A program made the position numbers and the translations under genes. From positions 1 through 57,555 of the forward strand of contig PKTF01000371.1 in assembly GCA_002869275.1 (NCBI GenBank): 57,555 nucleotides of DNA. Reading direction: 5' to 3'. Position 1 is the stretch's first letter. The number at the start of each line of letters is the position of its first letter. Source of the DNA: Ignavibacteria bacterium (GTDB lineage Bacteria; Bacteroidota; Ignavibacteria; SZUA-365). Under the pieces are notes generated by a model. The model saw only the letters and a program-made list of their open reading frames with translations, did not search any database and had not been told where the DNA came from. Shown here in pieces: positions 24,327 to 54,503 of this stretch.

Positions 24327-25667
24327 ATGGCTACCGCACTGAACGACTTCATGCAGGAAGTCAAGACCAAAAACCCCGGTGAAGCGGAATTTCATCAAGC
24401 CGTGGAAGAGGTTGTGGAAACACTGCTTCCGGTCCTGGACAAACATCCGGAATATCGGAAAGCTCGCATCATGGAACGCATGGTGGAACCGGAACGTGTG
24501 ATCATGTTCCGCGTCCCCTGGATGGCTGACAACGGTGAAGTCCGCGTTAATCGCGGATATCGCATCGAGTTCAGCAGCGCGATCGGTCCCTACAAGGGCG
24601 GACTGCGATTCCATCCCAGCGTTACGCTCAGCATCCTCAAATTCCTGGGATTCGAACAAATCTTCAAAAACAGCCTTACCACCCTCCCCATGGGCGGCGG
24701 TAAGGGCGGCTCGGACTTCGATCCGAAGTTCAAGTCCAAAAACGAAATCATGCGCTTCTGCCAGAGTTTCATGAGCGAACTGTTCCGTCATATCGGACCG
24801 AATACCGACGTACCCGCCGGTGATATCGGTGTGGGCGGACAGGAAATCGGCTACATGTTCGGGCAGTACAAGAAACTGCGCAACTCCTTTGACGGTGTGC
24901 TCACCGGCAAGGGACTCTCCTGGGGCGGAAGCCTCATTCGTCCGGAAGCGACAGGCTTCGGCGTCGTGTATTTCGCCAATGAAATGCTCGCCACGAAGGG
25001 CCAGTCGTTCGAAGGAAAAACCGTCACCATCTCCGGCTTCGGCAACGTCGCCTGGGGCGCCGCGACCAAGGTCAACCAACTCGGCGGCAAGGTCGTGACG
25101 CTCTCCGGTCCTGACGGTTACATCCACGATCCTGACGGTATCAGCGGCGAGAAGATCGAGTACATGCTCGAGCTGCGCGCCAGCAATCAGGACATTGTCG
25201 AACCATACGCTGAGCAGTTCGGTGTGGAATTCGTGCCCAACAAGCACCCGTGGGAAGTCAAGTGCGACATCGCACTGCCCTGCGCCACGCAGAACGAACT
25301 CAACGAGGAAGATGCGAAGAACCTCATCGCCAACGGCTGCCTCTGCATCAGTGAAGGCGCCAACATGCCGACCACTCCGGAAGCTGCGAAGCTCATCCTC
25401 GAATCTGATATTCTGTACGGTCCCGCCAAGGCAGCCAATGCCGGCGGCGTCGCCGTGTCGGGTCTCGAAATGACGCAGAATTCCATCCGCATGAACTGGT
25501 CTCGTGAGGAAGTGGACAACCACCTGCACCGCATCATGAAGAACATCCACCAATCCTGCCTTGTTGCCGCCGATACCTATGGTACGTCGGGGAATTACGT
25601 CGCAGGAGCTAACATCGCCGGCTTCACGAAAGTGGCCGACGCGATGCTCGCACAGGGCGTCGTATAA
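24327..25667 (+). CDS. Glutamate dehydrogenase 1, predicted NAD-type (clostridial-like)
   Basis: A 446-residue hexameric-type glutamate dehydrogenase: L-glutamate + NAD+ + H2O <-> 2-oxoglutarate + NH4+ + NADH. Substrate motifs '[13 protein letters not shown]', '[14 protein letters not shown]' (catalytic Lys) and '[11 protein letters not shown]' (catalytic Asp) are intact. The coenzyme site reads 'SGFGNVAWGAATKV' and 'LSGPDGYIHDPDGI', with Phe238, Pro262 and Asp263. These match the NAD-specific Clostridium symbiosum enzyme at the positions known to set coenzyme choice. The protein differs there from its neighbour GDH 2. GAAGGA lies before the ATG. It converges on the first receiver/ATP-grasp gene through a shared palindromic terminator. 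Confidence 0.95.
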   Translation: MATALNDFMQEVKTKNPGEAEFHQAVEEVVETLLPVLDKHPEYRKARIMERMVEPERVIMFRVPWMADNGEVRVNRGYRIEFSSAIGPYKGGLRFHPSVTLSILKFLGFEQIFKNSLTTLPMGGGKGGSDFDPKFKSKNEIMRFCQSFMSELFRHIGPNTDVPAGDIGVGGQEIGYMFGQYKKLRNSFDGVLTGKGLSWGGSLIRPEATGFGVVYFANEMLATKGQSFEGKTVTISGFGNVAWGAATKVNQLGGKVVTLSGPDGYIHDPDGISGEKIEYMLELRASNQDIVEPYAEQFGVEFVPNKHPWEVKCDIALPCATQNELNEEDAKNLIANGCLCISEGANMPTTPEAAKLILESDILYGPAKAANAGGVAVSGLEMTQNSIRMNWSREEVDNHLHRIMKNIHQSCLVAADTYGTSGNYVAGANIAGFTKVADAMLAQGVV

Positions 25668-25739: not shown

Positions 25740-28700
25740 CTACACGACGAATCGATCGTCTTCGTCATCACTCTTGTATATGTCGCCCATATCACGGCAG
25801 CATCGAAAAATGGCCCCTGAGCCTGACTGCCCATCGACACGAATCTCCATGTCCTCGGATGTGCGAACGTGGCGAACGAACGTGGTCTGCTCCACCTCTT
25901 CCAGCGATTCGATCCAGTCCCAGTCGATAAGATCCTCTTCCTTGTAGTGCCGGGTGGTAAAGTATGCGATATGGAAAGATGTCAGGTTCTGGAAGAAATG
26001 TGACCCCTGCGAGGGATCGGGCAGCATGTCGGGAAGCGACGTCTCCACTACTGCATGCGCGCCCGAGATACCGGTAAAGCGCACGGGGATGCCCAGGAAA
26101 TGATCCGCCGAGCCCCAGCGGCCCGGACCAACGAGCAGGTAAGGCGTCTTCGCCTCGACAAGCTTGCGGTTGAGTTCCGCCACTTCGATCGCCATTTCCT
26201 GCGTCTTCGCACTGTCGAAGGTGTCGGATTTTACGTACACGATATCCTTCAGGCGGTAGATGCCGTTGCCGAGAACGTTTTTGCTGTACAGCACGAGGTT
26301 TTCGCTCTCGAGGTACTCTGGCTTGATTTCCACCGAACCTTCCTCTTTCACCATCGGCCGCACCTGCAGGAAATCGAATTCGGAGATGTCGTCGAAATGC
26401 TGTCCGAGCACGCCGGCGAACTCGATTTCCACCGGGCAATTCATCGCCGTTTCACACAGTGTCATAAGAAGCCTGAGGACCTTCGCAAGAGGGATATAAT
26501 CCGACTGCAGTATGGGCGCGAAGTTCACAACGCGCAACCCCTTGCGGAATGTGCCCTCGTACAGCGAATCATCTTCCGTGCAGAATGTCGAGGCCATGTA
26601 TTCCAGCGTGCCGTGCTTTTCGGAATCCTTCATACTGAGGAGCACAAGGTTTTCATCCTCGCTGGGATCCTCTTTCAGAGGATCCGATTCAAGATCGATG
26701 GCGAAGAATTTCTTTTGCGAATTCGTGAAATAATCACGCCGCGTCGCAAACTGCGGCATGATGGTAGGATACTGCGGACAGAACTGCGCGCTCACGCCAC
26801 CGTCGACGATGGTCTTTCCCAATCCCACTGCCAGGTTCACGACGCCGTCTGATTGCTTCGCATCACCGAAGGGATAATAATTGAACGAGCGCGCAACCCC
26901 GGAGTAATGGGGATAGTAATAATTGTCGAAACGCGTGCCGGCCGTCTCCTGGACAATCACCGCCATCTGTTCTTCCTCGACGCGGTGGCCCGTGGCCTCG
27001 ATGTAGTTCTTCGCGCTCTTGAGGTAGGTCGACGCGTACACGTATTTGATCGCCTGCAGCAATTCTTCAAAGCGTACATAGAGATCATCGTTGCTGTTCG
27101 GAAGCATGACCGTGGCGTAGATACCCGCGAAGGGCTGGTACAACGTATCCTCGAGCAGGCTCGACGAACGAATTGCGAGCGGCTGGTTGTTCTGCCGCAC
27201 GATTACGCGCAGGTCTTCCTCGATATTGCTGGGGAAGCGCCCGTTCATGAAATGCTGCACGATTTCTTCATCCGGAATATTCTGTACGACCACGGGCAGC
27301 AGGTCGTTCAGCTCCATGAACTGGTTGAAGACGTCCGTACACAAAATCACCGAGCGGGGAATCTTGATGCGCACATTCGGGAAGTATGACGGATGCAGAT
27401 AATTCTTGAGGATGTTGTCGATGAAGGCGAGACCGCGCGCCTTGCCGCCCATCGATCCGCCCCCGACACGCAGGAACGTGGCGCTTGAATCGAAGTCCTC
27501 ATGCGACAGTTCGGCGATCATGCCGCGTTCGTCGTAAATCACCAGCTCGTCGATCTTGCGGATGATATAGGAACGCAACTCATCGAAGGATTCGAATTCC
27601 GTGATCTTTACCGGCTTGATTTCCTGCGCCAGGCGAAAGCGCGTACGCGCGAGCAGCCAGTTGGAAAAGTGGTCATGAGAGGCGTGATAGCGCAGCGACT
27701 CGTCGGGCACACTGTGCAGTTTTTTACGCAGCTGACGGATGGTGCGTGCCCGGTCGACCTCGGTACCATCGGGCATACGGAAAATGAAATCGCCGAAACC
27801 GAAATTCGTGAGCATGTAATCACGCACTTCCTGCAGCAATGTACGCGATCCCTTATTCACGAATGCTGCGTTCAGGCTCGCAATCTCTTCACGTAATTCT
27901 TCCTGCGACGATTGCACCAGCACGGGCAGTTCAGGACATTTTTCGCGTACACGACGGATGTACTTCAAACCTGCACGGCTGTCCTCTTTGCCGTCGACGG
28001 GAAATTTTACATCGGTGATAATTCCGAGCAATTCCTGCCGGTACTTGTGGAAATAGCGCCAGGCCTCCTCGTAGTTGGTCGCGTGCAGGATCTTCGGACG
28101 GGCGCGCTGGCGCAGCAGTTTCTCGGCAAAATTCTTCCCTTCTTCGATGAGCATCTGCCCCTGCTTGATCAGCTCAGTGTAAATCAGCGGCAAATACGAT
28201 GAGTAGAACTGCGGCGAGTCCTCCACGAGAATGATTGCGCGCACACCGAAATCCTTGCAGTCCGACCGCGCATTGATCAGATCCTCGAGCAGCTTGATGA
28301 TGGCGAGGAACAGCTTGCGGTCACCCGACCAGATGAATGTGCGGTCAAACAGGTCGATCGCTCCTTCGTTGAGCAGAATCTGCAGCTCTTTGCTCTGATA
28401 GCCCAGCAGCGCGACAGGGATGTCGGGGTTCATATCCTTGACCGAGCGACAGAAGACATCGAGGCGCATGTCACCCAGGCGCATCATCGTGATGACGAGA
28501 TCGAACTGATGCTGTTCGAGAGCCTCGAGCGCGGCTTCGCCGGAATACACGCGCGTGATCGACGGCGCATAATGCAGATTCAGTTCGAGGTACTCGCTGA
28601 AGATTGCCTCGGTCAGCTGTCCGTCGTCGACCAGCGTATAAAAGTCATAGCGGCTGGAAACCAGCAGGATATTATTGACGCGGAAGCGCATCAGATCCTT

Positions 28701-28796
28701 GAAATCGAGATCATGCGGACTGATATCCCGGTTCGAAAAACCCGATTGCTGGATGATGTCCCGGAGTTCGTCTCGTTTGATGCGTCTGCGCTTCAT
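25740..28796 (-). CDS. Receiver-ATP-grasp (PPDK_N) fusion protein 1, function unknown
   Basis: A 1018-residue cytoplasmic protein. Residues 41-160 are a degenerate response-regulator receiver: the phospho-Asp position in 'DLVITMMRLGD' is Met104. Residues 186-325 are a second receiver that looks intact: Glu192-Asp193, Asp262 ('GIITDVKF'), Ser296/297 and Lys315. Residues about 440-840 are the PEP/pyruvate-binding ATP-grasp half of PEP synthase, with 'GGSMGGKARGLAF', 'PLAIRSSSLLED', 'GVARSFNYYPFG' and 'FLQVRPMV'. No phosphohistidine swivel (G-x-S-H-A) or PEP barrel follows. Instead a C-terminal block holds 'LVGPGRWGSADHF' (from Gly890) and 'GSHFFQNLTS'. It is not a PEP synthase; a signal- and ATP-responsive regulator or modifier of GDH is my inference. 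The start at 28796 follows GGCGGGAAT. Confidence 0.9.
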   Translation of the reverse strand: MKRRRIKRDELRDIIQQSGFSNRDISPHDLDFKDLMRFRVNNILLVSSRYDFYTLVDDGQLTEAIFSEYLELNLHYAPSITRVYSGEAALEALEQHQFDLVITMMRLGDMRLDVFCRSVKDMNPDIPVALLGYQSKELQILLNEGAIDLFDRTFIWSGDRKLFLAIIKLLEDLINARSDCKDFGVRAIILVEDSPQFYSSYLPLIYTELIKQGQMLIEEGKNFAEKLLRQRARPKILHATNYEEAWRYFHKYRQELLGIITDVKFPVDGKEDSRAGLKYIRRVREKCPELPVLVQSSQEELREEIASLNAAFVNKGSRTLLQEVRDYMLTNFGFGDFIFRMPDGTEVDRARTIRQLRKKLHSVPDESLRYHASHDHFSNWLLARTRFRLAQEIKPVKITEFESFDELRSYIIRKIDELVIYDERGMIAELSHEDFDSSATFLRVGGGSMGGKARGLAFIDNILKNYLHPSYFPNVRIKIPRSVILCTDVFNQFMELNDLLPVVVQNIPDEEIVQHFMNGRFPSNIEEDLRVIVRQNNQPLAIRSSSLLEDTLYQPFAGIYATVMLPNSNDDLYVRFEELLQAIKYVYASTYLKSAKNYIEATGHRVEEEQMAVIVQETAGTRFDNYYYPHYSGVARSFNYYPFGDAKQSDGVVNLAVGLGKTIVDGGVSAQFCPQYPTIMPQFATRRDYFTNSQKKFFAIDLESDPLKEDPSEDENLVLLSMKDSEKHGTLEYMASTFCTEDDSLYEGTFRKGLRVVNFAPILQSDYIPLAKVLRLLMTLCETAMNCPVEIEFAGVLGQHFDDISEFDFLQVRPMVKEEGSVEIKPEYLESENLVLYSKNVLGNGIYRLKDIVYVKSDTFDSAKTQEMAIEVAELNRKLVEAKTPYLLVGPGRWGSADHFLGIPVRFTGISGAHAVVETSLPDMLPDPSQGSHFFQNLTSFHIAYFTTRHYKEEDLIDWDWIESLEEVEQTTFVRHVRTSEDMEIRVDGQSGSGAIFRCCRDMGDIYKSDDEDDRFVV

Positions 28797-29127: not shown

Positions 29128-30522
<1,395 letters not shown>

Positions 30523-30622: not shown

Positions 30623-33600
30623 TCAGCTCTCCACCACGTTGTTCCGCTTCAGCACGACACCGCGACCGCTCTGTCCATCAACGATGATCTCCATGTCTTC
30701 CTCGGCAACAACGTGCCGCAGATGCGCAGTCTCCTCCACACACTCCAGTCCGTTCATCCACTCCCAGTCAATGCTGTGCGAATCGTTGTAATGGCGGAGC
30801 GTGAAATATGTGATACGAAAGGACGTAAGGTTCTGGAAGAAATGTGATCCCTGTGATGGATCGATGATCATGTTCGGCAGCGTGGTTTCCACAATGGCCG
30901 TGGCGGCCGAGATGTCACCGAATCCGACGGGGATTCCCAGTGAAGGATCGGACGATCCCCAGCGGCCCGGACCGATCAGCAGATACGGCCGGTGCGCCTC
31001 GAGCAGCTGCCGGTTGATCTCCGCGATCTCGCGGGCCATCGCACGCGTCTTCATCGCGTCGAACGTTTCGGGTTTGACAAACACGATGTCTCGCAGCCGC
31101 TTCAGTCCGTTGCCCAACGTCTGCTCACTCTGAAATACGATATCTTCGGGAGGGATGGCATCAAAATCGATATTGACGCTCCCCTCCTGCTTGACCATCG
31201 GACGCAGCTGAAGGAAACTGAACTCGGCAGGCATGGGTTTATCGGGCGATAGCTGCACGGCAAATTCGATTTCCACCGGACAGTTCACCGCGGTCTCGCA
31301 CATCTCAACCAGCAGCCGAATCACATTGTTCAGCGGGATCACCTCCGACTTCAGCACCGGTGCGAACGTGAGTACACGCGGACCTTCGCGACTCATCCCC
31401 TCGTAAAGACGGTCATCCTGACCCGAATATGTTGATGCGAGATATGTGAGGGTGTTGTGCTCCTCTGCCTGTTTCAGGGTCAGCTGCGCGAGGTTCTGAT
31501 CTTCCTTCGGGTACTTCCGAATGATATCCGATTCGATATCGAGGGCGAAGAAATCGAGCTGTGAATTGTGAAACAGGTCGCGTGTGGTCCCGAACTGGGG
31601 GTACACATGTGGATACGCCGGCGAATACTGCAGACTGGTGCCGCCGTCCACGATGGTCTTACCCAGACCGAGTGCCAGGTTCACCACGCCGTCTTTCTGC
31701 TTCGCCTTCCCGAAGGGATAGTAGTTGAACGAGCGCGCCACGCCGGAGATGTGCGGGTAGAAGTACTGTCCGTGACGTTGCCCCACCATCTCCTGGATAA
31801 TCACGGCCATGCGCTCTTCCTCGATGCGGTTCGCCGTAGCCTCGATGTAATTCTTTGCCTGACGAAAATACGTCGAGGCAAAAACATATTTGATCGCCTG
31901 GGTCAGATTGTGGAATCGTACCGAGGGATCGCTGCTGCTGTTCGGGATCATCACCGTCGCATAAATGCCCGCGAAGGGCTGATACATCGCGTCCTCGAGC
32001 AGTGAAGACGATCGCACTGCCAGCGGGAAATGCGCCTTGTCAAGAATTGCTCGCAGATCGCCCAGCACTGTGGCCGGGAGGTCGGCATGCAGAAACGCGC
32101 GCAAGATCTCCTGGTCGCTCACATTCTGCACCGCAAGCGGCAGCAGGTCGTTCTGTTCGATGAACTGTGAAAAGACGTCAGTTCCCAGGACGATCGTGCG
32201 TGGGATGGATATGCGCATTCCCGGGAAAAAGTCTCCGGAGAGGTAGCGACGCAGGAGATTGTCCGTAAAGGCGAGGCCGCGGCCTTTGCCGCCGAGCGAA
32301 CCGGAACCGATGCGCAGGAAGGTATCCATCGGATCGTATTCCGCTCGTGCGAAATCCGAGATGACGCCTTTCTGATCCTGAATGAGATGGTCGCTGATGG
32401 CTTTCAGCAAATAGGTCCGCAGCTCGTCCGTGGAATCGAATTGCGTGACCTTCACAGGCTTGAGTTTCTTCGACAGCTCGAAACGCGTCCGGGCTTTCAG
32501 CCAGTTGCTGAAATGGTCACGCGAGGCATGGTAGAGCAGCGATCCGTCGGGAATGTAACGCAGTTTCTCGCGCAGTTCGCGGAGGTTGTGTGCACGGGTC
32601 ACCTCTTCGCCTTCGGGTGTACGGAAAACGAAGTCACCGAAGCCGAAATTCTCTTTCATGAACTCGCTCAGCGACTGCAGCAGCATGCGCGAATTCTTAT
32701 CGGCAAATGAAATGCCTTCCTGTTCGATCTGCAGGCGCAGTTCGGTGTTGGACGACTGGATAAGTATCGGCAGTTCGGGCTGTTCCTTCCGCACGGTACG
32801 TGAGAATTTGAGTCCCGCCAGCTCATCCATTTCTCCTTCACATTCAAAGCGCATATCGGATATGATGCCCAGCAATGTCTTGCCATATTTTCGGTACAGC
32901 GTCATCGCTTCGTCGTAGGAATTCGCCATGATGATCTTCGGCCGCGCACGCTGGCGCAGCAGTTTGTCGGCAAAATTCTTCCCTTCCTCGATCAATGCCT
33001 GCACCTGCCAGATCAGTTCGGCGTAAATCAATGGCAGGTACGAGGAATAAAACCAGGGAGAATCCTCCACCAGCATAATGGTGCGCACTCCGAAATCAAG
33101 ACAGTCCACCGGCGCATTCCGAATGTCCTCGAGCAGCTTGATGATGGCGAGGAAGAGTTTGCGGTCACCCGACCACACGAAGATGCTGTCGAAGGTGGAC
33201 AGGTCGGCGGTTTTCATGTAGAGGTCGAACTCGGCCGATTGGAACGACAGCAGCACTACTGGCAAGTCGGGATGCTGCCGCTTGAGATTTCCGCAGAATG
33301 AGGCCAGGTCCATGTCTCCCAGTCGCAGCATGGAGATGACGAGATCGAAATCCTCGCTTTCCAGTTTGCGCAACGCCGCCTCACCCGAATTCACACGCGT
33401 GATATGCGGGGCATAGTGGAGATTGAGCTCCGTGTACTCATTGAAGATGGCCTCTGTCAACTGGCCATCCTCCACGAGGGTGTAATAGTCATACAGACTC
33501 GATACGAGCAGGATCTTGTTGATCCTGAACGTCATCAAGTCCTTGAAATCGAGCTGCCGCACCTTTGGAAGGGACGTCCCAATGCCGGATTCCTGGATGA

Positions 33601-33640
33601 GGTCGGTAACCTCGTCGTCATGTGTCAGTTTCGAACTCAT
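30623..33640 (-). CDS. Receiver-ATP-grasp (PPDK_N) fusion protein 2, function unknown
   Basis: A 1005-residue paralog of the 25740-28796 protein, collinear to the residue: degenerate first receiver with Met104 ('DLVISMLRLGD'), intact-looking second receiver with Glu192-Asp193, Asp262 ('GIISDMRF') and Lys315, then the ATP-grasp half of PEP synthase ('GSGSLGGKGRGLAF', 'PLAVRSSSLLEDA', 'FLQLRPMV') and the C-terminal block 'LIGPGRWGSSDPSLG' from Gly890 and 'GSHFFQNLTS'. The swivel His domain and PEP barrel are absent. It begins 11 nt after the stop of GDH 3, so GDH 3 and this gene share a transcript, and it converges on GDH 2. A regulatory or modifying role on GDH is inferred from context only. 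Confidence 0.9.
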   Translation of the reverse strand: MSSKLTHDDEVTDLIQESGIGTSLPKVRQLDFKDLMTFRINKILLVSSLYDYYTLVEDGQLTEAIFNEYTELNLHYAPHITRVNSGEAALRKLESEDFDLVISMLRLGDMDLASFCGNLKRQHPDLPVVLLSFQSAEFDLYMKTADLSTFDSIFVWSGDRKLFLAIIKLLEDIRNAPVDCLDFGVRTIMLVEDSPWFYSSYLPLIYAELIWQVQALIEEGKNFADKLLRQRARPKIIMANSYDEAMTLYRKYGKTLLGIISDMRFECEGEMDELAGLKFSRTVRKEQPELPILIQSSNTELRLQIEQEGISFADKNSRMLLQSLSEFMKENFGFGDFVFRTPEGEEVTRAHNLRELREKLRYIPDGSLLYHASRDHFSNWLKARTRFELSKKLKPVKVTQFDSTDELRTYLLKAISDHLIQDQKGVISDFARAEYDPMDTFLRIGSGSLGGKGRGLAFTDNLLRRYLSGDFFPGMRISIPRTIVLGTDVFSQFIEQNDLLPLAVQNVSDQEILRAFLHADLPATVLGDLRAILDKAHFPLAVRSSSLLEDAMYQPFAGIYATVMIPNSSSDPSVRFHNLTQAIKYVFASTYFRQAKNYIEATANRIEEERMAVIIQEMVGQRHGQYFYPHISGVARSFNYYPFGKAKQKDGVVNLALGLGKTIVDGGTSLQYSPAYPHVYPQFGTTRDLFHNSQLDFFALDIESDIIRKYPKEDQNLAQLTLKQAEEHNTLTYLASTYSGQDDRLYEGMSREGPRVLTFAPVLKSEVIPLNNVIRLLVEMCETAVNCPVEIEFAVQLSPDKPMPAEFSFLQLRPMVKQEGSVNIDFDAIPPEDIVFQSEQTLGNGLKRLRDIVFVKPETFDAMKTRAMAREIAEINRQLLEAHRPYLLIGPGRWGSSDPSLGIPVGFGDISAATAIVETTLPNMIIDPSQGSHFFQNLTSFRITYFTLRHYNDSHSIDWEWMNGLECVEETAHLRHVVAEEDMEIIVDGQSGRGVVLKRNNVVES

Positions 33641-33651
33641 AGGCCGCGCTG

Positions 33652-34938
33652 TTACACCCAGCCACGCATTTTACATGCTTCAGCCACGCGTGCGATGGCG
33701 ATCATATAGGCCGCATCCCGCATGGGGATGTTGCGGCGATGCGCCATCTGCGAAACGGAGAAGTACGCGTCGGTCATCTGCGTATCGAGCTTGCTGATCA
33801 CCTCGTCGCGCGTCCAGAAGTAATTCATGTTGCTCTGCACCTGCTCGAAGTAACTGCAGGTGACACCACCCGCATTTGCCAGGAAGTCCGGCACAAGCCA
33901 GATCTTCTTTTCGCGGATGACGGCGTCCGCCGGGGGCGTGGTCGGACCGTTCGCGCCCTCGGCGATGATCTTCACGCTGCCCTTGATGCCCTTCACGGTA
34001 TCCCGGTTGATCTGGTTTTCCATTGCCGCGGGAATCAGTACATCGACCTCCTGCTCGATCCACGCGTCTCCGGGCAGCACCGTGTATCCTGCCTCTGCAG
34101 CCTTGTCGCGGTTGATTTCTCCGTAGGAGTTTGTCATGCTGCGCAGCTGCTTGAGGTCCACTCCGTCCTTGCGGAAAAACGCGAACGCTTCCTGCGCCGT
34201 CTGATCCCAGCTTGAGACGCAGAGCACCTTGCCGCCGTAGGAATGGAAGAGATCGATGGCATACTGTGCCACGTTGCCGAAGCCCTGCACTGACGCTGTC
34301 GCTTCCTCCATACGCAGCCCCAGTTCGCTCAGCGCCTCGCGCACGGTGTAGATGACACCATAACCCGTGGCTTCGGTGCGTCCGAGCGATCCGCCCATGC
34401 CGACTGGTTTTCCGGTGATGAAGCCCGGGGCCTTGCGTCCGGTGAGATGCTCATATTCATCGAGCATCCAGAGCATGTGCTGTGACGAGGTCATGACGTC
34501 CGGAGCCGGCACATCGCGGTCGGGCCCGATCGCATCGATGAGTTGTCGCACCCAGCCGCGGCAGAGGGCCTCCTGTTCGCGTGGCGAAAGGTTGTGCGGA
34601 TCGCAGATCACACCGCCCTTGGCGCCTCCGAGGGGAATGTCGACCACGGCGGTTTTCCACGTCATCCACATGGAAAGCGCGCGCACGGTGTCCACCGTCT
34701 CCTGTGGGTGGAAGCGCACACCGCCCTTTCCAGGACCGCGCGCGGTGTTGTGCTGAATCCGGAAGCCGCGGAAGACCTTGTAGCTTCCATCGTCCATACG
34801 GATCGGGATGTTGAAATGCATTTCGCGATCGGGCACGCGCAGCAGGTCTCGTGTGGCTTCGTCGAGCCCCAGCTGATTGGCGACGGCGTCAAACTGCTCC
34901 TGCGCCATCCGGTAGGGATTGAAAGATTCTGTGCTCAT
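33652..34938 (-). CDS. Glutamate dehydrogenase 3, Glu/Leu/Phe/Val dehydrogenase family
   Basis: A 428-residue enzyme of a different GDH subfamily (RocG/GudB and archaeal type) from GDH 1 and 2. Motifs: 'RGFRIQHNTARGPGKGGVRFHP', 'IPLGGAKGGVICDP' (catalytic Lys), 'DVPAPDVMTSSQHMLWM' (catalytic Asp) and 'EGANGPTTP'. The Rossmann turn is 'VQGFGNVAQYA', and the end of the second strand is 'VLCVSSWDQTA', where the usual acidic NAD-selecting residue is replaced by Ser, so coenzyme choice is uncertain. ATG 34938 gives family length. It is transcribed ahead of receiver-ATP-grasp gene 2 and divergently from the GAF-ATP-grasp gene. Confidence 0.93.
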   Translation of the reverse strand: MSTESFNPYRMAQEQFDAVANQLGLDEATRDLLRVPDREMHFNIPIRMDDGSYKVFRGFRIQHNTARGPGKGGVRFHPQETVDTVRALSMWMTWKTAVVDIPLGGAKGGVICDPHNLSPREQEALCRGWVRQLIDAIGPDRDVPAPDVMTSSQHMLWMLDEYEHLTGRKAPGFITGKPVGMGGSLGRTEATGYGVIYTVREALSELGLRMEEATASVQGFGNVAQYAIDLFHSYGGKVLCVSSWDQTAQEAFAFFRKDGVDLKQLRSMTNSYGEINRDKAAEAGYTVLPGDAWIEQEVDVLIPAAMENQINRDTVKGIKGSVKIIAEGANGPTTPPADAVIREKKIWLVPDFLANAGGVTCSYFEQVQSNMNYFWTRDEVISKLDTQMTDAYFSVSQMAHRRNIPMRDAAYMIAIARVAEACKMRGWV

Positions 34939-35186
34939 TCGGCTCTCCGAACAAATTCTGATATCTGAATCGTAGCGTACTGCCCGAGGATCGTCTGGTC
35001 GTTCCGTGCAACTATATTTCTCGTAAGCACGCGATTTTGACCGTGGAAACAACATACAAGTTTTGCCGTCAACACTCAATTCCGTACCGGCAGCTCCGTT
35101 TCCTATCCAGACAGCAGACCGCAATGTCTTTATCCTTGCTCCGCCAATCCGTATCTTCCGAATGCATACACAACGGCAGGGGCTCG

Positions 35187-38100
35187 ATGAAAAACAAGGA
35201 AAAATCTCTCGGCGATCTCCTTTACGCACTCGGTGAACGCGCCAAGGAACTCAACTGCCTCTACCATGTGGAGGAAGTACTCGCGAGACCGGAAACGATG
35301 CTGGAGGAAATATTCGCGGAAGTGATCAAGGCCATTCCACCCGGGTGGCAATTCCCCGACATCTGCCGCGCCCGCATCACGTTTGGCGGGCGGTCGCATA
35401 CCTCCGTCGATTTTGTCGAAACCCCGTGGCGTCTCGCAGCGGACATCATGGTGCATGAAAAAGCCGAAGGCCGTCTCGAAGTGTTTTATACACGCGAGGT
35501 GGGCCCGGCGGATGAAGGCCCGTTCCTGCAGGACGAGCGCAAGCTCATCAACACCATCACCGACCGTCTCGGCCATCACATCCAGCATCAGCGCATGCGC
35601 AACGTCTTCTCTGAATGGCAGTCGCTCAAGGAGCAGCTCGCTGAAAAGAAGCGCGAAGAATGGAAAGTCATCCTGCAGATGCTGCGGCGCACCGATCAGA
35701 ACTTGTATACGAGCATCTCCCGCAAGATGCTCAACCGCCTCTGCTGGGCCGGCATCAAGAACGCCTGCGACCTCATGCAGCGTTTCGGCTCGAAGGACAA
35801 CGACCAGGACGATGTATTCGGTGAATCCAACGTTCCGCGGCAGCGCGAGCAGCTGCACCATTTCATCACATCGAGTGACGAGATCTACCAGATCGCTGCC
35901 GAAAATCTTGGCGAGGATGAAATTCTCTCCCTCATCCAGAAATGGATCAAGGACGACAAGGCGTCCTTTCTCGTCAATACCGTTGAAAACCAGCACACGT
36001 CGCTCTCCGAAATCGTGGACGCCATCGCTCGGTACTACCACATTTTCCCCGAAGGAATCGACCTTTCGCCCGCAACGGAGAAAGGGCTCCGCGTTTCTCT
36101 CATCCGGCGGTTTTTCACCGACCAGCTTCCATATATCAACGTGGCGAAGCATTTCCTCGATGCGCATGATTTCTTCGAGCTGACCAAACGCACAATTTTC
36201 CACCAGAAGAGTCACGGCAAGCTCGGCGGCAAGAGTTCGGGGCTCTTCCTCGCCTGGCATATTATCCGCAAGGAGGCCGAGGCCAGCGGGCGCTTCCAGA
36301 ACGTGCGCATCCCGAAGACGCGCTACATCACCTCCGACGGCATCCTCAACTTCATCCACTACAACAATCTCGAAGAGGTGTTCAACCAGAAGTACCTCGA
36401 CATCGAACAGGTACGGGAGGAATACCCGTCCATCATCCAGGTGTTCAAGAATTCCTATTTCTCGCCCGAGGTGATCAAGGGACTGTCGATGGCGCTGGAT
36501 GAGTTCGGCGATAATCCGCTGATCGTACGCAGCTCGAGTCTGCTCGAAGACAGCATGAGTGCGGCCTTCTCAGGGAAGTACAAAAGCCTCTTCCTCGCCA
36601 ATGCCGGCACGAAGGCACAGAACCTTGCTGCGCTGCTCGATGCGATCGCTGAGGTGTACGCCTCCACCTTCGGACCCGATCCGATCGAATACCGGGCCGA
36701 ACGTGGGCTGCTGGACTTCCACGAGGAAATGGGCATCATGATCCAGGAGGTGGTGGGAACACGTGTGGGCAAATACCTGATGCCGGCCTGGTCGGGCGTG
36801 GCTTTCAGCAACAACGAATTCCGCTGGTCGCCGCGTATCAAGCGTGAAGACGGCCTCATCCGTCTCGTGCCCGGGCTGGGTACGCGCGCCGTGGACCGTA
36901 TCGGTGACGACTACCCGGTGCTGCTCGCGCCCGGACAGCCCAACCTGCGTGTCAACATCACGCCCGACGAAATCGTCCGCTATTCTCCCAAGAAGATCGA
37001 CGTCATCAACCTCGAAAAGGAGACCTTCGAAACCATCGACATCCTCGACCTGCTGCGGGAGAGCGGGAACGATTATCCGGCGATCAACACGCTCGTCTCG
37101 CAGTATGACGGCGATATGATCCGACAGCCCTTCGGCTTCGATCTCGATTTCGAGAACGACGTGTACGCGGTGACCTTCAACGGCCTCATATCCAACACCG
37201 GTTTCGTGAAAGAGATCCATGAAATGCTCACGCTGCTGCAGGAGAAGCTCAACACGCCGGTGGATATCGAGTTCGCCTCCGACGGTCAGAACCTCTACCT
37301 CCTGCAATGCCGTCCCCAGAGCTTCACCCGACACAACATTCCTTCGCCCATCCCGCAGGATATTCCCCGTGAAAACACCATCTTCACGGCAAACCGTTAT
37401 ATCTCGAACGGCACGCTGCCAGACGTCACTCATATTGTCTACGTCGATCCCATCCGCTACTCCGAACTGCGCGACCGCATCGACCTGGTGACAATCGGAC
37501 GTATCGTGGGCAAGCTCAACAAGCTGCTGCCCAAGCGGCAGTTCATCCTGATGGGTCCGGGACGCTGGGGCAGCCGGGGCGACATCAAGCTGGGGGTGAG
37601 CGTGACGTATTCAGACATCAACAACACCTCGCTGCTCGTGGAAATCGCGCGCGAACAGGGCGGTTACCTTCCCGACCTTTCTTTCGGTACACATTTTTTC
37701 CAGGACCTCGTCGAAGCGTCCATCCGCTACTTGCCGGTATATCCCGACGAGCCGTCGGTGCAGTTCAACGAGGCCTTTATCAAGCGCAGCCGCAACATCC
37801 TCCCCGACATCCTGCCGGACTATGCGAACTATGCAGATTGTGTATTCGTGGTGGACGTCCCCGCCAGCACGGAAGACAAAGTACTGCACGTACTGATGAA
37901 CGCCGAACTGGAACAGGCGATCGGATACCTCGACGAGCCCTCCAACGGCACCCCCGAGGCTCCCGAAGCCACCGCTCCACGGCAGAGGACACCTGACGAT
38001 CACTGGGAGTGGCGTCTGCGCATGACCGAGCGTATCGCGGCCGATCTCGATCTCGACCGCTATGGGGTAAAAGCCCTGTATGTCTTCGGAAGCACGAAGA

Positions 38101-38363
38101 ACGGCACTGCCGGTCCGTCAAGCGATATCGACATCCTCGTCCACGTCGACTCCACTGACGAACAGATGGCCTGTCTCGACAACTGGTTCCGCGGCTGCGG
38201 CATGAGCATGGCAGAGATGAACTTCCTGCGCACCGGATACACGTCCGACAACCTCCTCGACGTGCATTACGTCACCGACGACGACATCGCCAACAGGTCG
38301 AGCTACGCCGTAAAAATCGATGCAATCACCGATGCGGCGAGGCTGTTGAGAAAACGGGAATAA
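35187..38363 (+). CDS. GAF-ATP-grasp-nucleotidyltransferase fusion protein, function unknown
   Basis: A 1058-residue cytoplasmic protein. Residues about 10-135 resemble the GAF-like sensor found before histidine kinases ('ELNCLYHVEEVLARP', 'IPPGWQFPDICRARI', 'DEGPFLQDERKLINTI'). An alpha-helical linker follows. The PPDK_N ATP-grasp part (from about 340) has 'GKLGGKSSGLF' (Lys349), 'PLIVRSSSLLEDSMSAAFSG' and 'LLQCRPQS'. The shared block has 'ILMGPGRWGSRGDIKLG' (Gly790) and 'FGTHFFQDL'. Residues about 955-1058 are a Pol-beta-type nucleotidyltransferase: Gly968-Ser969, then Asp980-x-Asp982. No swivel His or PEP barrel is present. ATG 35187 follows GGCAGGGG. It is divergent from GDH 3. Nucleotidylylation of a partner protein, by analogy to GlnE/GlnD control of nitrogen metabolism, is an inference. 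Confidence 0.88.
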   Translation: MKNKEKSLGDLLYALGERAKELNCLYHVEEVLARPETMLEEIFAEVIKAIPPGWQFPDICRARITFGGRSHTSVDFVETPWRLAADIMVHEKAEGRLEVFYTREVGPADEGPFLQDERKLINTITDRLGHHIQHQRMRNVFSEWQSLKEQLAEKKREEWKVILQMLRRTDQNLYTSISRKMLNRLCWAGIKNACDLMQRFGSKDNDQDDVFGESNVPRQREQLHHFITSSDEIYQIAAENLGEDEILSLIQKWIKDDKASFLVNTVENQHTSLSEIVDAIARYYHIFPEGIDLSPATEKGLRVSLIRRFFTDQLPYINVAKHFLDAHDFFELTKRTIFHQKSHGKLGGKSSGLFLAWHIIRKEAEASGRFQNVRIPKTRYITSDGILNFIHYNNLEEVFNQKYLDIEQVREEYPSIIQVFKNSYFSPEVIKGLSMALDEFGDNPLIVRSSSLLEDSMSAAFSGKYKSLFLANAGTKAQNLAALLDAIAEVYASTFGPDPIEYRAERGLLDFHEEMGIMIQEVVGTRVGKYLMPAWSGVAFSNNEFRWSPRIKREDGLIRLVPGLGTRAVDRIGDDYPVLLAPGQPNLRVNITPDEIVRYSPKKIDVINLEKETFETIDILDLLRESGNDYPAINTLVSQYDGDMIRQPFGFDLDFENDVYAVTFNGLISNTGFVKEIHEMLTLLQEKLNTPVDIEFASDGQNLYLLQCRPQSFTRHNIPSPIPQDIPRENTIFTANRYISNGTLPDVTHIVYVDPIRYSELRDRIDLVTIGRIVGKLNKLLPKRQFILMGPGRWGSRGDIKLGVSVTYSDINNTSLLVEIAREQGGYLPDLSFGTHFFQDLVEASIRYLPVYPDEPSVQFNEAFIKRSRNILPDILPDYANYADCVFVVDVPASTEDKVLHVLMNAELEQAIGYLDEPSNGTPEAPEATAPRQRTPDDHWEWRLRMTERIAADLDLDRYGVKALYVFGSTKNGTAGPSSDIDILVHVDSTDEQMACLDNWFRGCGMSMAEMNFLRTGYTSDNLLDVHYVTDDDIANRSSYAVKIDAITDAARLLRKRE

Positions 38364-38369
38364 TACGAT

Positions 38370-39230
38370 TCAACATAACTCCCGCTTCGCATCCTCAGGA
38401 TGCGCGGGATCGAAGCGCACGAGCGCGAGTTCGCGGCCGTTGTGGGCTGCGGAGTAGCACCAGCTGCGACCGATCTGCTCCTTCCATTCACCAGTGATGG
38501 AAGCGGATTCGTGGATGTGTCCGTGGAGGGTGATGAGGGGCTGGCGCTGCTCAATGAAACGCTTGATCGCGACGCTTCCGACATGCACATCCAGCGGAGC
38601 GTGGTCGATCATCTTGCCGTCGAGTGCGGCGCGGTCGAGTTTCGTCTTGTACGGGGGTGAATGAAACAGCATGATGGAGGAAGGGACGTCCATCTCTGCA
38701 GTCAGCTCTGCCAGGTCTTCCTGTATGGTACGGTAGCGCAGTTCGCGTGCATCCAGCGGAACAGAATGCCGGCCGTCTTCCGGTGCGATGCAGCCGGGTT
38801 CTAAGTAGCGTGATACGTCGTAGCGCTCCCAGTCTTTGCGCTGAAACGGCGTAGGCGGCACGTAGGCATACCCGCCAAGCGCATATTCTCGCCAGGGAAG
38901 GTTTGTATTGTGGAGATATGTCCACAGTCCCTTATAGCTCTCATCCAGGATCTGCGCCTCATGTACTCGCGGATCATCATTGCCGAAAATGAGGAACACA
39001 CGTGGATACCTCTCCCCCATCTCCTCCTTGAGCCTTCGAAACCTTACCGCAAAGTACTCGTCGATAAAATCCGTCACCGGCGGATAGAGGCCGGCAGCCG
39101 AACGCGCGTGTGAAGGCAGCAGGTCCCCGCCGAGAAAGACAGCGTCCGGCACCTCTTCCACGATGCGTGTGAAGAGCTGTTCATAGCGATGCTGGTGTCC
39201 GTGAAGATCGGAAACGAAGAAGCAGAGCAT
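38370..39230 (-). CDS. Calcineurin-like metallophosphoesterase
   Basis: A 286-residue protein with the full dimetal signature: 'SDLHGHQHRY', 'FLGGDLLPS', 'IFGNDDPRV', a His in 'LFHSPPYKT' and 'LHGHIHESAS'. No signal peptide, so cytoplasmic. The substrate (phosphodiester, phosphomonoester or nucleotide) cannot be told. It converges on the preceding fusion gene with a 6-nt gap. A hairpin (38389-38405) lies within its last codons without a T-run. Confidence 0.9.
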   Translation of the reverse strand: MLCFFVSDLHGHQHRYEQLFTRIVEEVPDAVFLGGDLLPSHARSAAGLYPPVTDFIDEYFAVRFRRLKEEMGERYPRVFLIFGNDDPRVHEAQILDESYKGLWTYLHNTNLPWREYALGGYAYVPPTPFQRKDWERYDVSRYLEPGCIAPEDGRHSVPLDARELRYRTIQEDLAELTAEMDVPSSIMLFHSPPYKTKLDRAALDGKMIDHAPLDVHVGSVAIKRFIEQRQPLITLHGHIHESASITGEWKEQIGRSWCYSAAHNGRELALVRFDPAHPEDAKRELC

Positions 39231-47372: not shown

Positions 47373-49652
47373 CTACCAGAGCATGCGAAGTCGTACAGTG
47401 AAGTTACGGCCGGGCTCGTCGCGCAGCAATCCGCGCAGCGTGGACAGGTGACGGCGCCATGGCCGGTCGAACATGTTTTCCACACCCGCAAAGAACTGTA
47501 TTCCTACCCCTGCGAAGCGCAGCTGCGTCGAACGCATGTGGAGACTGTACAGCGCGTAACCGGGGGTACGGTCTTCACCTGCAGCTACGGCATCCTGGTC
47601 CGCGGCGGCATCGAGCGAAACGTCCGCATACAGAAATTCTCCGATCGGCATGCGAAATCCCAGTCGCACGCTGAGCGGAGGCATCTGCGGGAGATCGATG
47701 TCGTTCTTCGTATCCTGGCCGCGCACAAAAGACGCGGTTGCGTACAGCACCGCTGCATCGAAGGGACTATACTCCCCCGTCAGTTCCGCGCCGTACAGCC
47801 GGGCTTCTCCGATGTTGGTCTTCATGTACAGCGTGTCGCTCATGCGCTCATCAACGACGAGGTCGCTCATCAGCCGTAAGAAGGTATTGGCGCGAATGGA
47901 TACGCGGCTGCCGTGCAGGCGCATTCCGAAATCGAACATGCTGCCCCGCTCGGCCGCGAGGTCTTCGTCGCCGAGCCACAACGCATCCCCGAGCTCAATG
48001 TACTGGTAGCGCTCCTCGAGCGAGGGCGCGCGGAAGGCGCGGGAGGCGTTGAGCGTCAGCGAAAGCGCATCGGTCAGATGGTAGAGCGCCCCGGCGTGCA
48101 TGCTCCAGGAAATTTCATCCGATTCCTCGGCAGTCCATCTCAGAGCGCGTCCCGGGGGAGAATCGTTGCGCTGACCGTCGCTATCTATATAGACGAGGTC
48201 GTAACCCTCTTCGTTCTCCACGTGTATCTGGTCAACACGTCCGCCGAGGGAAAGGCGCATGCGTCCGTCGAGGAGCGTCCATTCATCCTGCAGGAATGCG
48301 CCGATACTACGGAAGCTGGCGTCGGGCAGGGGCAGATCGGCGATGGTGGTACTGCTGGCATGCAGTTCACGCAGGCGAATGCCGCTATAGCGTCGTGCCC
48401 AGGCATCCGCGCCGGCGATGATGCGGTGTCCGCCGAACAGCCAGGTATTCTGCAGTTGCAGGGCATCCATCTCGTGATCGGCCGAGGGACGCAGGGTGAC
48501 TTTGTCATTCGGCACGATTTCGACGTTGCGGCCGATGCTCTGCCGCAAATAACGCAGGGTCAGGTTCGACACGTGTGTTCCAAGCGGACCTGTCGCATAT
48601 TCCGCTGTGATCAGTTCGCGATCTTCGTCAGGATAGCGCGCCGAGGCCGATGCAGGAAATGATGATCCACCGGGAATGCCGACATCCTGAGCATGAAAGC
48701 GCTGGTAGCGGAGTCGGACTTCGTGACTGCGGTAGGGACGCAGTCCAGCGGAGAAGCTCATGTTGCGATCGTGAAAACGGCTGTCGCTCAGTGTGCCGTT
48801 GGGAGTCTCGGCATCCACGGCGCTGCGCAGCATCCCGTGTGCATGCGCGTACCACCACCGGTCGGCCATGTCAAGCGTCAGCGCCCCAGCACTCCCCCGG
48901 TTCACACTTGCATAACTGCTGCTGAGAGCTCCGCCGAAATACAATCCGTCGGTATATCCACCCGCGCGTGTGACGATATTGACCACACCGCCCGTGGCAC
49001 CGCTGCCGTAAAGGCTTGAGGCCGGACCACGAATCACTTCTATTCTGTCGACATCGGTGAGATCGATCATCGAGAGTCCGGCCGCATGCGCCGTGGCTGT
49101 TTCGATCCGCGCACCGTCGACGAGCGTCACCACGTTGCTGCGTGAAAGACCACGGATGCTCACATCCGTGCCCCACATGCCATCGCGCACAAGGGCAATC
49201 CCCGGCTCGGCGGCAAGGGCATCCGGCACGCTTACAGTGACCCGCCGAAGAAGGTGCTCTGCCCCGATCACGCTCACCGGCTGTGGAGTATTGCGCAGCA
49301 GATCTGCACCGCGCGTGCCGGTAATGCTCACCATTCCCAGATCGATGACCGCCTCGCGCAGGTGTATGCGCAGCTGCCGCGTGACGCCGGGTGTCAGTTC
49401 CACGCGCTGCTCATTCATCGCATAACCGAGATGCGAGCTACGCAGCAGAACACTTCGAGCAGGCAGTCCTTCAAAGAAAAATGCTCCGTCATTGTCGGTC
49501 GTGGCAGCTCGGTCGAGCGCCGGCAGCAGCACGTGCACACCGGGCAGCGGCTGGTCCGCGCCATCAGTGACGACACCCCGGAGAGCGGCATTCTGCGCAG
49601 CAAGAACTCCAGGTATCACGACGAACAGCGAGAAGAAAAACAGGCGAAACAT
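47373..49652 (-). CDS. TonB-dependent outer-membrane receptor
   Basis: A 759-residue protein with signal peptide MFRLFFFSLFVVIPGVLAAQ. Residues about 22-105 are a CarboxypepD_reg-like beta-sandwich ('LRGVVTDGADQPLPGVHVLLP'). The plug domain (about 110-220) shows 'TPQPVSVIGAEHLL', 'ALAAEPGIALVRDG' and 'VDRIEVIRGPASSLYGSGATGGVVNIVTR'. A 22-strand barrel follows and ends in 'LRMLW' with the C-terminal aromatic. The ligand is unknown; cobalamin, siderophore or metal-complex uptake is possible, and Zn transporters lie a little downstream. It has its own promoter and leader hairpin. Confidence 0.93.
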   Translation of the reverse strand: MFRLFFFSLFVVIPGVLAAQNAALRGVVTDGADQPLPGVHVLLPALDRAATTDNDGAFFFEGLPARSVLLRSSHLGYAMNEQRVELTPGVTRQLRIHLREAVIDLGMVSITGTRGADLLRNTPQPVSVIGAEHLLRRVTVSVPDALAAEPGIALVRDGMWGTDVSIRGLSRSNVVTLVDGARIETATAHAAGLSMIDLTDVDRIEVIRGPASSLYGSGATGGVVNIVTRAGGYTDGLYFGGALSSSYASVNRGSAGALTLDMADRWWYAHAHGMLRSAVDAETPNGTLSDSRFHDRNMSFSAGLRPYRSHEVRLRYQRFHAQDVGIPGGSSFPASASARYPDEDRELITAEYATGPLGTHVSNLTLRYLRQSIGRNVEIVPNDKVTLRPSADHEMDALQLQNTWLFGGHRIIAGADAWARRYSGIRLRELHASSTTIADLPLPDASFRSIGAFLQDEWTLLDGRMRLSLGGRVDQIHVENEEGYDLVYIDSDGQRNDSPPGRALRWTAEESDEISWSMHAGALYHLTDALSLTLNASRAFRAPSLEERYQYIELGDALWLGDEDLAAERGSMFDFGMRLHGSRVSIRANTFLRLMSDLVVDERMSDTLYMKTNIGEARLYGAELTGEYSPFDAAVLYATASFVRGQDTKNDIDLPQMPPLSVRLGFRMPIGEFLYADVSLDAAADQDAVAAGEDRTPGYALYSLHMRSTQLRFAGVGIQFFAGVENMFDRPWRRHLSTLRGLLRDEPGRNFTVRLRMLW

Positions 49653-49665
49653 GGGCTATCCTTTC

Positions 49666-49715
49666 AAAAAAAAATGACAACGATGCAATCTTTCCGGACC
49701 GCGATCCGGATTGCA
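49666..49715 (-). promoter_or_regulatory. Leader hairpin and T-run upstream of the TonB receptor gene
   Basis: In the 100-nt leader of the receptor mRNA, TGCAAT and ATTGCA arms (49684-49715) enclose CCGGA / TCCGG arms. The run of nine T residues (49666-49674 on the minus strand) follows 9-10 nt after the stem and lies just ahead of the ribosome site. The layout resembles an attenuator, but the gap between stem and T-run is larger than usual and no known riboswitch was recognised. Confidence 0.4.
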
Positions 49716-49766
49716 CAGTTGACATCCTCTTGTTGTGCGCAGGCGATTGCTCGTCCGTGCGCACTA

Positions 49767-49797
49767 CAAAATTACGATTTCTTTTTCAGAGTCCCAA
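49767..49797 (-). promoter_or_regulatory. Bacteroidota-type promoter of the TonB receptor gene
   Basis: Reading the minus strand, TTGG at 49797-49794, 19 nt, then TAATTTTG at 49774-49767. Both elements and the 19-nt spacing match the Bacteroidota pattern. It lies 115 nt upstream of the receptor start and just past the stop of the M28 peptidase gene. Confidence 0.65.
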
Positions 49798-49806
49798 TAT
49801 CCGCTT

Positions 49807-51579
49807 TCAAAGCTCCACGATCAGCAGCACCTTCTCGCCGTCCCGCAGCACTTCTACGGTGATGCGCTGACCGGATTTGAATTCGGAGAGGCGGTCCATG
49901 TATTCGTACACGCCGTTGACGGACTTGCCTTCCATGGAGACGATGATGTCGCCTTTCTTCATACCGGCGCGAAAAGCAGGACGCCCTTCCATCACGGCAT
50001 CGGCACGCAGCCCTTTCTCATTGCTGGATGACACATCGGGCATGATACCGAGCGTGACCTTGAAGCGCTTCGACGTCGCCGGGCGGCTCTTCGGTCCGGA
50101 TTCCACGTATGTCAGCGCATCGGGACGCTGCGCGACTGCCTCGACGATGCCATGCACCAGATCCGCCAGCAGCTTTTCTCCCACGTAGTTCAGCTTGTCG
50201 GCGTCATCTTCAGGCGTATGATAATACTGGTTTATGCCGGTGAAGAAAAACAGCACGGGTACGTCACGCGAATAGAATGCCGCGTGATCTGACGGACCGT
50301 ACCCCTCGGGTGAGAGCTTGGCGGTGAACCCTTCTTTCGCCACGACATCCTCGACAAGGGCGGACAATCCCTCTGCCGTGCCCGTGCCGCTGATGCTCAG
50401 ACTTTTTTCACCCTCGGGCATGCGTCCGACCATGTCGAGATTGCACATGAGTTTGAGCGACTGCAGATCCACCGGCGGATTGTCGACGAAATACTTGGCG
50501 CCGAGCAGGCCCATCTCTTCCGCGGTGAAGGCGACGACGAGGATGCTGCGACCGGGTACCTTGCCCGATGCCGAGATCCGTTCCGCAACCTCGATGATGG
50601 CCGCGACGCCCGAAGCGTTATCGTCGGCCCCATTGTGTACGGCACTCGTATCGGGGCGACGCGAACCCGAACCCGGACCACCCATGCCGAGATGATCGTA
50701 GTGCGCGCCGAGGACGATATACTCATCCGCATGCGGACCCTCGCCCTTGATCAAGCCGATGACGTTATGTCCCTCGATACTGTGCCTCTCCATGCGAATG
50801 CTGCTGGACACGCTGCCCGAGCATGCGGTACGCAGCGGAGCACGTTGCGTGTTCAGTTCTTTCTCCAGTGATTCGATGGTTGTTTCGCCCAGGAGGTCAT
50901 CGGCGAGTGTACGCGAGATGCTCAGCACCGGAAGGTCCATGGCGCGTTCCTGCTGCTGATAGCCCATTTCGACGAGTGCGTCATCCTTGTCGAATCCCGG
51001 CCCGGATGTAAAGAGCACTCCCGCCGCGCCGTGGTCATGTGCAACCATGGCTTTTTTCCGCAGCGACATGAAAGGATCGAAGTCCCCACTCTCGCTGTCG
51101 GGACTCCCGCGCAGCACGAGCACCCATTTGCCTGTAACGTCGAGTCCTTCGTAGTCATGCCACGCCGAACTGTCCAGCTCGAAATCGAAGCCATATCCAG
51201 CGAACACCACCCCGGCCTCGACCGCGGCTTCACCGGTAAAGGAAACGGGAGTGAAATTCTTTCCGAGCTCCGCCACGACACCGTCCACAGTGAGGGCACA
51301 GTCGTCTGCGGCGCTGATACCGGTTACGATCGGGAAACTCTGCATTCCGTCATTGTCCAGCAGTTCGAGTCCGGCCTCGCGAAGTCGGTCGCGGATGTAC
51401 TCGGCGGCAGCATCACCGCCCTCGGTGCCTGGCTTGCGGCCTTGCAGTTCGTCGGAGGCGAGAAACTCCACATGCTCGCGCAGTTCATCCGAGGTGATAT
51501 CCTCGGAGACCTGGGCACGCAGCATGTTCGGGAGAAGAAGAATGGCGATCAGAGGTAGGAAGCGGAAAATGTTCGTCAT
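49807..51579 (-). CDS. Secreted M28 family peptidase with PA and PDZ domains (copy 1)
   Basis: A 590-residue exported aminopeptidase. Signal peptide ends 'LPNMLRAQ'. A PA-like insert (about 100-235) precedes the second half of the M28 domain. Zinc site: 'GAHYDHLGMGG', 'NGADDNASGVA', 'AFTAEEMGLLG', 'NLDMVGRMPE' and 'SDHAAFYSRD'. A C-terminal PDZ domain (about 505-590, 'GLRADAVMEGRPAFRAGMKKGDIIVSMEGKSV') probably recognises C-termini. It is a tandem paralog of the gene upstream at 51813-53633. Confidence 0.92.
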   Translation of the reverse strand: MTNIFRFLPLIAILLLPNMLRAQVSEDITSDELREHVEFLASDELQGRKPGTEGGDAAAEYIRDRLREAGLELLDNDGMQSFPIVTGISAADDCALTVDGVVAELGKNFTPVSFTGEAAVEAGVVFAGYGFDFELDSSAWHDYEGLDVTGKWVLVLRGSPDSESGDFDPFMSLRKKAMVAHDHGAAGVLFTSGPGFDKDDALVEMGYQQQERAMDLPVLSISRTLADDLLGETTIESLEKELNTQRAPLRTACSGSVSSSIRMERHSIEGHNVIGLIKGEGPHADEYIVLGAHYDHLGMGGPGSGSRRPDTSAVHNGADDNASGVAAIIEVAERISASGKVPGRSILVVAFTAEEMGLLGAKYFVDNPPVDLQSLKLMCNLDMVGRMPEGEKSLSISGTGTAEGLSALVEDVVAKEGFTAKLSPEGYGPSDHAAFYSRDVPVLFFFTGINQYYHTPEDDADKLNYVGEKLLADLVHGIVEAVAQRPDALTYVESGPKSRPATSKRFKVTLGIMPDVSSSNEKGLRADAVMEGRPAFRAGMKKGDIIVSMEGKSVNGVYEYMDRLSEFKSGQRITVEVLRDGEKVLLIVEL

Positions 51580-51751
51580 GACATGGTCCTGTCGTTCGAA
51601 ATACGGGGAAAGTGAAGGATATCCTTCGACAGGACAAGTTAAGAAGGAAAAGGATAACGTTCACGGATATTCACCATGCGCAACGGACGGCAACACGGGT
51701 ACCGCCTCGAGATTCTGGAGAAGCCCGAAGCTGAGTCGCACCGGGTAATCG

Positions 51752-51788
51752 AAAAAACCCGCCACACCGAGCGGGGTGACGGGCTTTC
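51752..51788 (-). terminator. Imperfect terminator after M28 peptidase copy 2
   Basis: On the minus strand, a GC-rich imperfect stem (GCCCGTCACCCCGC then GGTGTGGCGGG, with a bulge) ends in TTTTTT. It falls between the two tandem peptidase genes, so they are probably separate transcripts. Confidence 0.6.
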
Positions 51789-51812
51789 CTGGATGGTGGG
51801 AATACTTCCTGG

Positions 51813-53633: not shown

Positions 53634-53834
53634 ATCATCTATATCCTTGTTTAGCGTTCTGTAATATACAACACCGCGGCTTGTCATTCTGTTTCCGTGC
53701 GGGGTGAGAATTCGCATCCACGGTAGACGCTGCACGAACACCGTTCTCACACTGGCATTCGATCTTGAAATTGATATATTGGCTGTACTTGAACAGAATA
53801 CACCGCAATACTGCATAATACATGGAGGTATCAC

Positions 53835-54503
53835 ATGGCAGGTATTTTTGCCCGCATCACGGATATTTTCAAAGCGAATATCAATGATATTCTCGACAAG
53901 GCCGAAGACCCGGAGAAAATGATCAAGCAGATGGTCATTGAAATGGAAGAAGCGGTCAACAAAGCGACGACGGCCGTCGGGTCGGCAATCGCCAACGAAA
54001 AACAGCTCGAGCGCCAGCATAAGGAGAAGCAGAAGCTTATCGGACAGTGGCAGCAGCGTGCCGTCAAGGCAGTGAACGCCGGACGCGACGACCTCGCGCG
54101 GCAGGCTCTCGAGAAGAAAAACATGTTCGAGAAAGCAGCGACGGATCTCGAAGCACCGCTGGCGGAGGCACAGAAAACCGCTGTGACGATGCGCTCACAG
54201 CTCGAACAGCTCAAGGCGAAGCTCGACGAAGCGCGCGTGCGCCAGGGCACGTTGATCGCGCGTCATCAGGCCGCAAAGGCCAAAAAGCAAATTTCCTCGA
54301 GCCTGGCGGGCATCGGTGACGGCGCCTTTGCCAACTTCGATAAGTACGAGCAGAAAGTGCTGCAGGTCGAATCCGAGGCCGAGGCCATGGCCGAGATCGC
54401 GGGCGATACGACGTCCCTTGACGACGAGTTCGCGAAGCTCGAGGCGGGTGATTCCGTCGAAGAAGAACTGGCGCTGCTCAAGGCCGCCGCCGAGAACAAG
54501 TAA
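53835..54503 (+). CDS. pspA: PspA/IM30 family envelope-stress protein
   Basis: A 222-residue coiled-coil protein of the ESCRT-III-like PspA/Vipp1 family that oligomerises on the inner membrane and maintains membrane integrity. The N-terminal amphipathic helix 'MAGIFARITDIFKANINDILDKAEDPEKMIKQM' is typical, followed by a long coiled coil (about 25-150). It is followed after 36 nt by the TY-chaperone-like gene. No PspF or PspBC partner is present, and I found no clean sigma-54 promoter. Confidence 0.93.
   Translation: MAGIFARITDIFKANINDILDKAEDPEKMIKQMVIEMEEAVNKATTAVGSAIANEKQLERQHKEKQKLIGQWQQRAVKAVNAGRDDLARQALEKKNMFEKAATDLEAPLAEAQKTAVTMRSQLEQLKAKLDEARVRQGTLIARHQAAKAKKQISSSLAGIGDGAFANFDKYEQKVLQVESEAEAMAEIAGDTTSLDDEFAKLEAGDSVEEELALLKAAAENK

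Follow-up and report, generated by a model that had tools for sequence, protein, structure and literature searches.

The 57,555-nucleotide stretch analyzed here, hereafter the window, is contig PKTF01000371.1 (positions 1 to 57,555, forward strand) of the Ignavibacteria bacterium assembly GCA_002869275.1. Within it, three glutamate dehydrogenase (GDH) genes lie inside 11 kb and alternate with three genes for proteins carrying a PPDK_N ATP-grasp domain, two of which are response regulators. Two of the GDHs are NADP-type relatives and the other is archaeal/NAD-type. The genes and features are as follows.

24327..25667 (+): third GDH, 73% identical to GDH1, convergent with RR1
25740..28796 (-): RR1, receiver/PPDK_N protein, divergent from GDH1
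29131..30522 (+): GDH1, NADP-specific glutamate dehydrogenase (NCBIfam NF006929, 784 bits; likely start ATG 29179)
30623..33640 (-): RR2, pseudo-receiver, intact receiver and PPDK_N core, directly downstream of GDH2
33652..34941 (-): GDH2, archaeal/NAD-type glutamate dehydrogenase, 429 aa (Pfam ELFV_dehydrog), divergent from the fusion
35187..38363 (+): fusion protein, 1058 aa: GAF-like domain, helical linker, PPDK_N, domain without a detected fold relative, MNT-type nucleotidyltransferase (NTase)
35205..35606 (+): GAF-like N-terminal putative sensor domain (residues 7-140)
36219..37358 (+): PPDK_N ATP-grasp nucleotide-binding domain (residues 345-724), with K349, R448, D693, E695, Q707 and R709 essentially invariant
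37359..37946 (+): domain without a detected fold relative (residues about 725-920), with GPGRWGS and the essentially invariant His836 in SFGTHFFQD
37692..37694 (+): codon of His836
37995..38360 (+): MNT-type nucleotidyltransferase domain (residues 937-1058)
38088..38132 (+): GSX10DXD active-site motif, G968 to D982
38259..38261 (+): predicted third catalytic acid, Asp1025
38370..39230 (-): calcineurin-like metallophosphoesterase (Pfam Metallophos, 1.2e-11), convergent, 6 bp from the fusion stop; proposed eraser
47373-54020: TonB-dependent receptor and two M28 peptidases with PDZ domains near the GDH cluster, suggesting peptide and amino-acid use

The first-pass annotation described a GAF sensor, an ATP-grasp domain and a Pol-beta nucleotidyltransferase joined in one polypeptide, and this observation is confirmed. 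The reading frame is open for 1058 codons. Pfam searches assigned PPDK_N to residues 345-724 (E 3.4e-58) and NTP_transf_2 to residues 957-992 (E 6.9e-9, above the curated cut-off). Gly968, Ser969, Asp980 and Asp982 had been numbered correctly, and the third acidic residue that the annotation had asked for is present as Asp1025 (LLDVH). The five residues read GS-D-D-D in 106 of 125 relatives' loci, a few of which are redundant, and thus the NTase looks catalytically complete by sequence. The NTase evolves at a dN/dS of about 0.10. The architecture is not a product of chance, as it is conserved in full over many phyla. The GAF label is plausible but weaker. The window protein itself has no Pfam GAF hit, 11 of 30 orthologous N-termini reach GAF only weakly (best E 0.0025), and Foldseek hits to GAF proteins were likewise weak, although the predicted model shows an alpha/beta sensor-like fold. 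The same segment does precede HisKA/HATPase_c domains in other proteins, as had been claimed. A profile search of the N-terminus against PDB found nothing useful.

In order to examine the domain anatomy, AlphaFold2 was run on 32 orthologs. The resulting model (mean pLDDT 79.8, pTM 0.63) contained a GAF-like alpha/beta domain, an all-helical linker (about residues 115-333), PPDK_N, a further domain and the NTase. Foldseek matched PPDK_N to the ATP domain of rifampin phosphotransferase and PEP synthase and, more weakly, the NTase to small nucleotidyltransferases including MNT antitoxins. The domain between them (722-925), predicted alone from 69 sequences, was confident (pLDDT 91.6, pTM 0.90), but had no PDB match at E <= 0.001. 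The possibility that it is a degenerate swivelling phosphohistidine domain was considered, but Foldseek gave no PPDK-type or other significant match. The six ATP-site residues (KRDEQR) and His836 are kept in 124 of 125 loci, and H836, R793 and W794 are shared with the short and receiver versions of the PPDK_N protein. About 780-aa relatives of the fusion that lack the GAF-like and NTase domains, and that are not beside GDH2, were seen in two further loci (L043, 5599-7935; L044, 5799-8129) and are possibly the older form.

The link to GDH, which had been only a guess from proximity, proved to be strong. We compared 80 loci from many phyla, whose records name Acidobacteria, Calditrichota, Spirochaetes, Zixibacteria, Myxococcota, Planctomycetota, Chloroflexota, Gemmatimonadota, Bacillota and others, nearly all of them MAGs, together with the isolate Oligosphaera ethanolica. 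The cultured strain Oligosphaera ethanolica DSM 24202 carries GDH2 and the fusion, but no phosphoesterase was found beside it. These were the best matches to the fusion and thus are not a random sample. All 56 loci with at least 3.6 kb of upstream sequence have GDH2 upstream of the fusion, either directly or with a short (about 580 aa) PPDK_N gene between them. In 149 related genomes, all 39 with GDH2 (>= 60% identity) also have the fusion, against 1 of the 110 others (Fisher 3e-35, not corrected for phylogeny; related genomes are not independent samples). No genome has GDH2 alone, and 32 of 40 fusions have GDH2 within 8 kb. Distances of fusion and GDH2 correlate only moderately (r 0.50), and strict co-inheritance is therefore not claimed.

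Of 89 receiver-PPDK_N genes, 70 lie within 3.5 kb of a GDH gene. These proteins have a response-regulator architecture with an ATP-grasp output, in which the first of two receivers has lost its phospho-Asp (0 of 31) while the second keeps E, D, D, S and K in 31 of 31. A histidine kinase and a response-regulator gene lie inside related GDH/receiver-PPDK_N clusters (loci L152, 3322-5397, and L154, 7285-9358) and may feed the receivers.

The convergent phosphoesterase occurs in 32 of the 149 genomes, every one with the fusion. Of the eight fusion genomes without it, four (designated G023, G078, G101 and G148) have a deleted or degenerate NTase and four (G050, G067, G085 and G117) keep most or all of the motif, with Ser969 changed to Thr in G117. 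Counting only the four clear losses, the phosphoesterase is present in 32 of 36 genomes with the NTase and in 0 of 4 with it deleted or degenerate (p 0.0008). In the multi-phylum set it is present in 33 of 68 loci, about half having none within reach, and the association with the NTase is borderline there (32 of 60 against 1 of 8, p 0.055). Both tests ignore shared ancestry. Its GD, GN and GHxH metal motifs (G35 D36, G83 N84, H190, G237 H238 and H240) are conserved in at least 93% of 68 members.

The interpretation that accompanied the first-pass annotation, which likened the protein to GlnD/GlnE and suggested a nucleotidylated GDH or a small-molecule product, is partly supported. The association with GDH and the complete motif hold. 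By contrast, no GlnE, GlnD, HD or ACT family match was found in Pfam or NCBIfam, and the resemblance to these glutamine synthetase adenylyl- and PII uridylyltransferases is one of logic only, namely a Pol-beta-superfamily nucleotidyltransferase tied to a nitrogen-assimilation enzyme, here with an ATP-grasp core and a separate phosphoesterase. By sequence and fold the NTase is nearest MntA, the adenylyltransferase of the HEPN/MNT type VII toxin-antitoxin system. MntA was the best NCBIfam model for the isolated domain, albeit below its curated cut-off (30.7 bits against 60). The two share the third acid and a small MNT-type fold, and the spacing G968-S969-x10-D980-x-D982 equals the GSX10DXD motif reported as the key active motif of MntA adenylyltransferases. 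MntA transfers AMP to a tyrosine of the partner protein encoded next door (PMC7641770), so a protein target stays plausible. Here, however, the domain is the C-terminus of a 1058-aa protein whose conserved neighbors are GDH2, PPDK_N and phosphoesterase, and no HEPN hit was found in the fusion or the scanned neighbors. The fusion shares with PEP synthase, PPDK and rifampin phosphotransferase the PPDK_N domain and its active-site residues, but Pfam found no PEP-utilisers swivelling domain or PEP/pyruvate barrel.

A further correction concerns which part accompanies GDH. The NTase has been inactivated (D982N in four loci) or deleted in several lineages without loss of the essentially invariant ATP-grasp core, and mostly without loss of GDH2. 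So the constant GDH partner is the PPDK_N core plus the domain without a detected fold relative, and the NTase is an accessory that is not needed for the core function. The short PPDK_N gene, the convergent phosphoesterase and the third GDH had not entered the earlier interpretation. In order to look for a modification site, we searched for a GDH2 Tyr, Ser, Thr or other residue conserved where the NTase is intact and lost where it is degenerate. None was found at >= 0.9 against <= 0.6 (86 versus 9 sequences). Residues that set fusion-linked GDH2 apart from unlinked GDHs exist, several of them shared with receiver-PPDK-linked GDHs, but they cannot be separated from phylogeny.

We hypothesize that the fusion belongs to a dedicated GDH control module, with an ATP-dependent core, an NTase "writer" and a phosphoesterase "eraser", and we place a probability of about 0.5 on this reading. 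Gene linkage, co-occurrence, domain content and conserved active-site residues were demonstrated by our analysis, whereas every activity and target that follows is inferred from sequence and gene context, and linkage cannot tell modifier from enzyme or scaffold. In this view, the GAF-like domain senses a ligand or partner, and the PPDK_N core, with the adjoining domain and its His836, binds or hydrolyses ATP and docks on, or phosphorylates, the GDH2 hexamer. The NTase would attach one or more nucleotides (AMP most likely, by analogy with MntA) to a protein of the module, either GDH2 or the PPDK_N core or its short paralogue, to change GDH activity, and the phosphoesterase would remove the nucleotide. 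Paralogues with receiver domains would do the ATP-dependent step for the other GDHs without the NTase. The narrower and more novel reading, in which the NTase nucleotidylates GDH2 itself and the phosphoesterase removes the nucleotide while the ATP-grasp core, with a new-fold domain and GAF or receiver inputs, sets the direction, would make the module an undescribed reversible covalent switch and a counterpart of GlnE/GlnD for GDH spread over many bacterial phyla. It is not excluded, but it remains doubtful.

The main rival, which we consider possible but less likely than the hypothesis above, is that the core is a phosphotransferase or ATP-driven docking factor acting on GDH, and that the NTase modifies only the core or its short paralogue as a form of self-control. 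The core is found beside three GDH types, mostly without an NTase, no GDH2 residue tracks NTase loss, and the short paralogue is often encoded between GDH2 and the fusion, although the MNT precedent modifies a separate partner protein. It is unlikely that the proteins form a metabolic enzyme set, in which the ATP-grasp and NTase domains build a small nucleotide or glutamate-derived molecule that the phosphoesterase degrades and GDH2 supplies or consumes the precursor. Other PPDK_N proteins in NCBIfam are ligases or small-molecule phosphotransferases, such as PigC and rifampin phosphotransferase, and some nucleotidyltransferase hits are aminoglycoside enzymes. However, the GAF-like and receiver domains point to signalling, the receiver versions pair with different GDH types without an NTase, and the swivelling phosphohistidine and PEP domains of PPDK-type enzymes were not found by Pfam. 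A toxin-antitoxin (HEPN/MNT) remnant fused by chance is very unlikely, since, despite the MNT-like sequence and fold and weak PADLOC matches to candidate-system models only, Pfam found no HEPN domain in the protein and the fusion is conserved over many phyla, mostly with an intact motif, beside GDH2.

Searches of the open-access literature, which leaves out most subscription papers, found no description of a GDH/PPDK_N/NTase system. Trans-acting gene(s) downstream of gdhA reportedly affect GDH activity in Bacteroides thetaiotaomicron (Baggio and Morrison 1996, as cited in PMC4539542), which resembles the arrangement proposed here, in which a gene beside a GDH gene would affect GDH activity in trans. 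The module offers a candidate, on present evidence no more than that, for this unidentified factor.

GDH sits where carbon and nitrogen metabolism meet, yet no general covalent control system for it comparable to that of glutamine synthetase has been described in bacteria. The large multi-part protein described here probably uses ATP to sense cell state and chemically tag a partner, and it is encoded beside one type of GDH in bacteria from many phyla, often with a possible tag-removing enzyme, so it looks like an undescribed control switch for a central nitrogen enzyme. A module this tightly tied to GDH would supply such a system, would give a role to a large set of proteins otherwise named only after their PPDK_N (PEP synthase-type) domain, and would turn a domain without a known fold relative into a testable enzyme or docking part.
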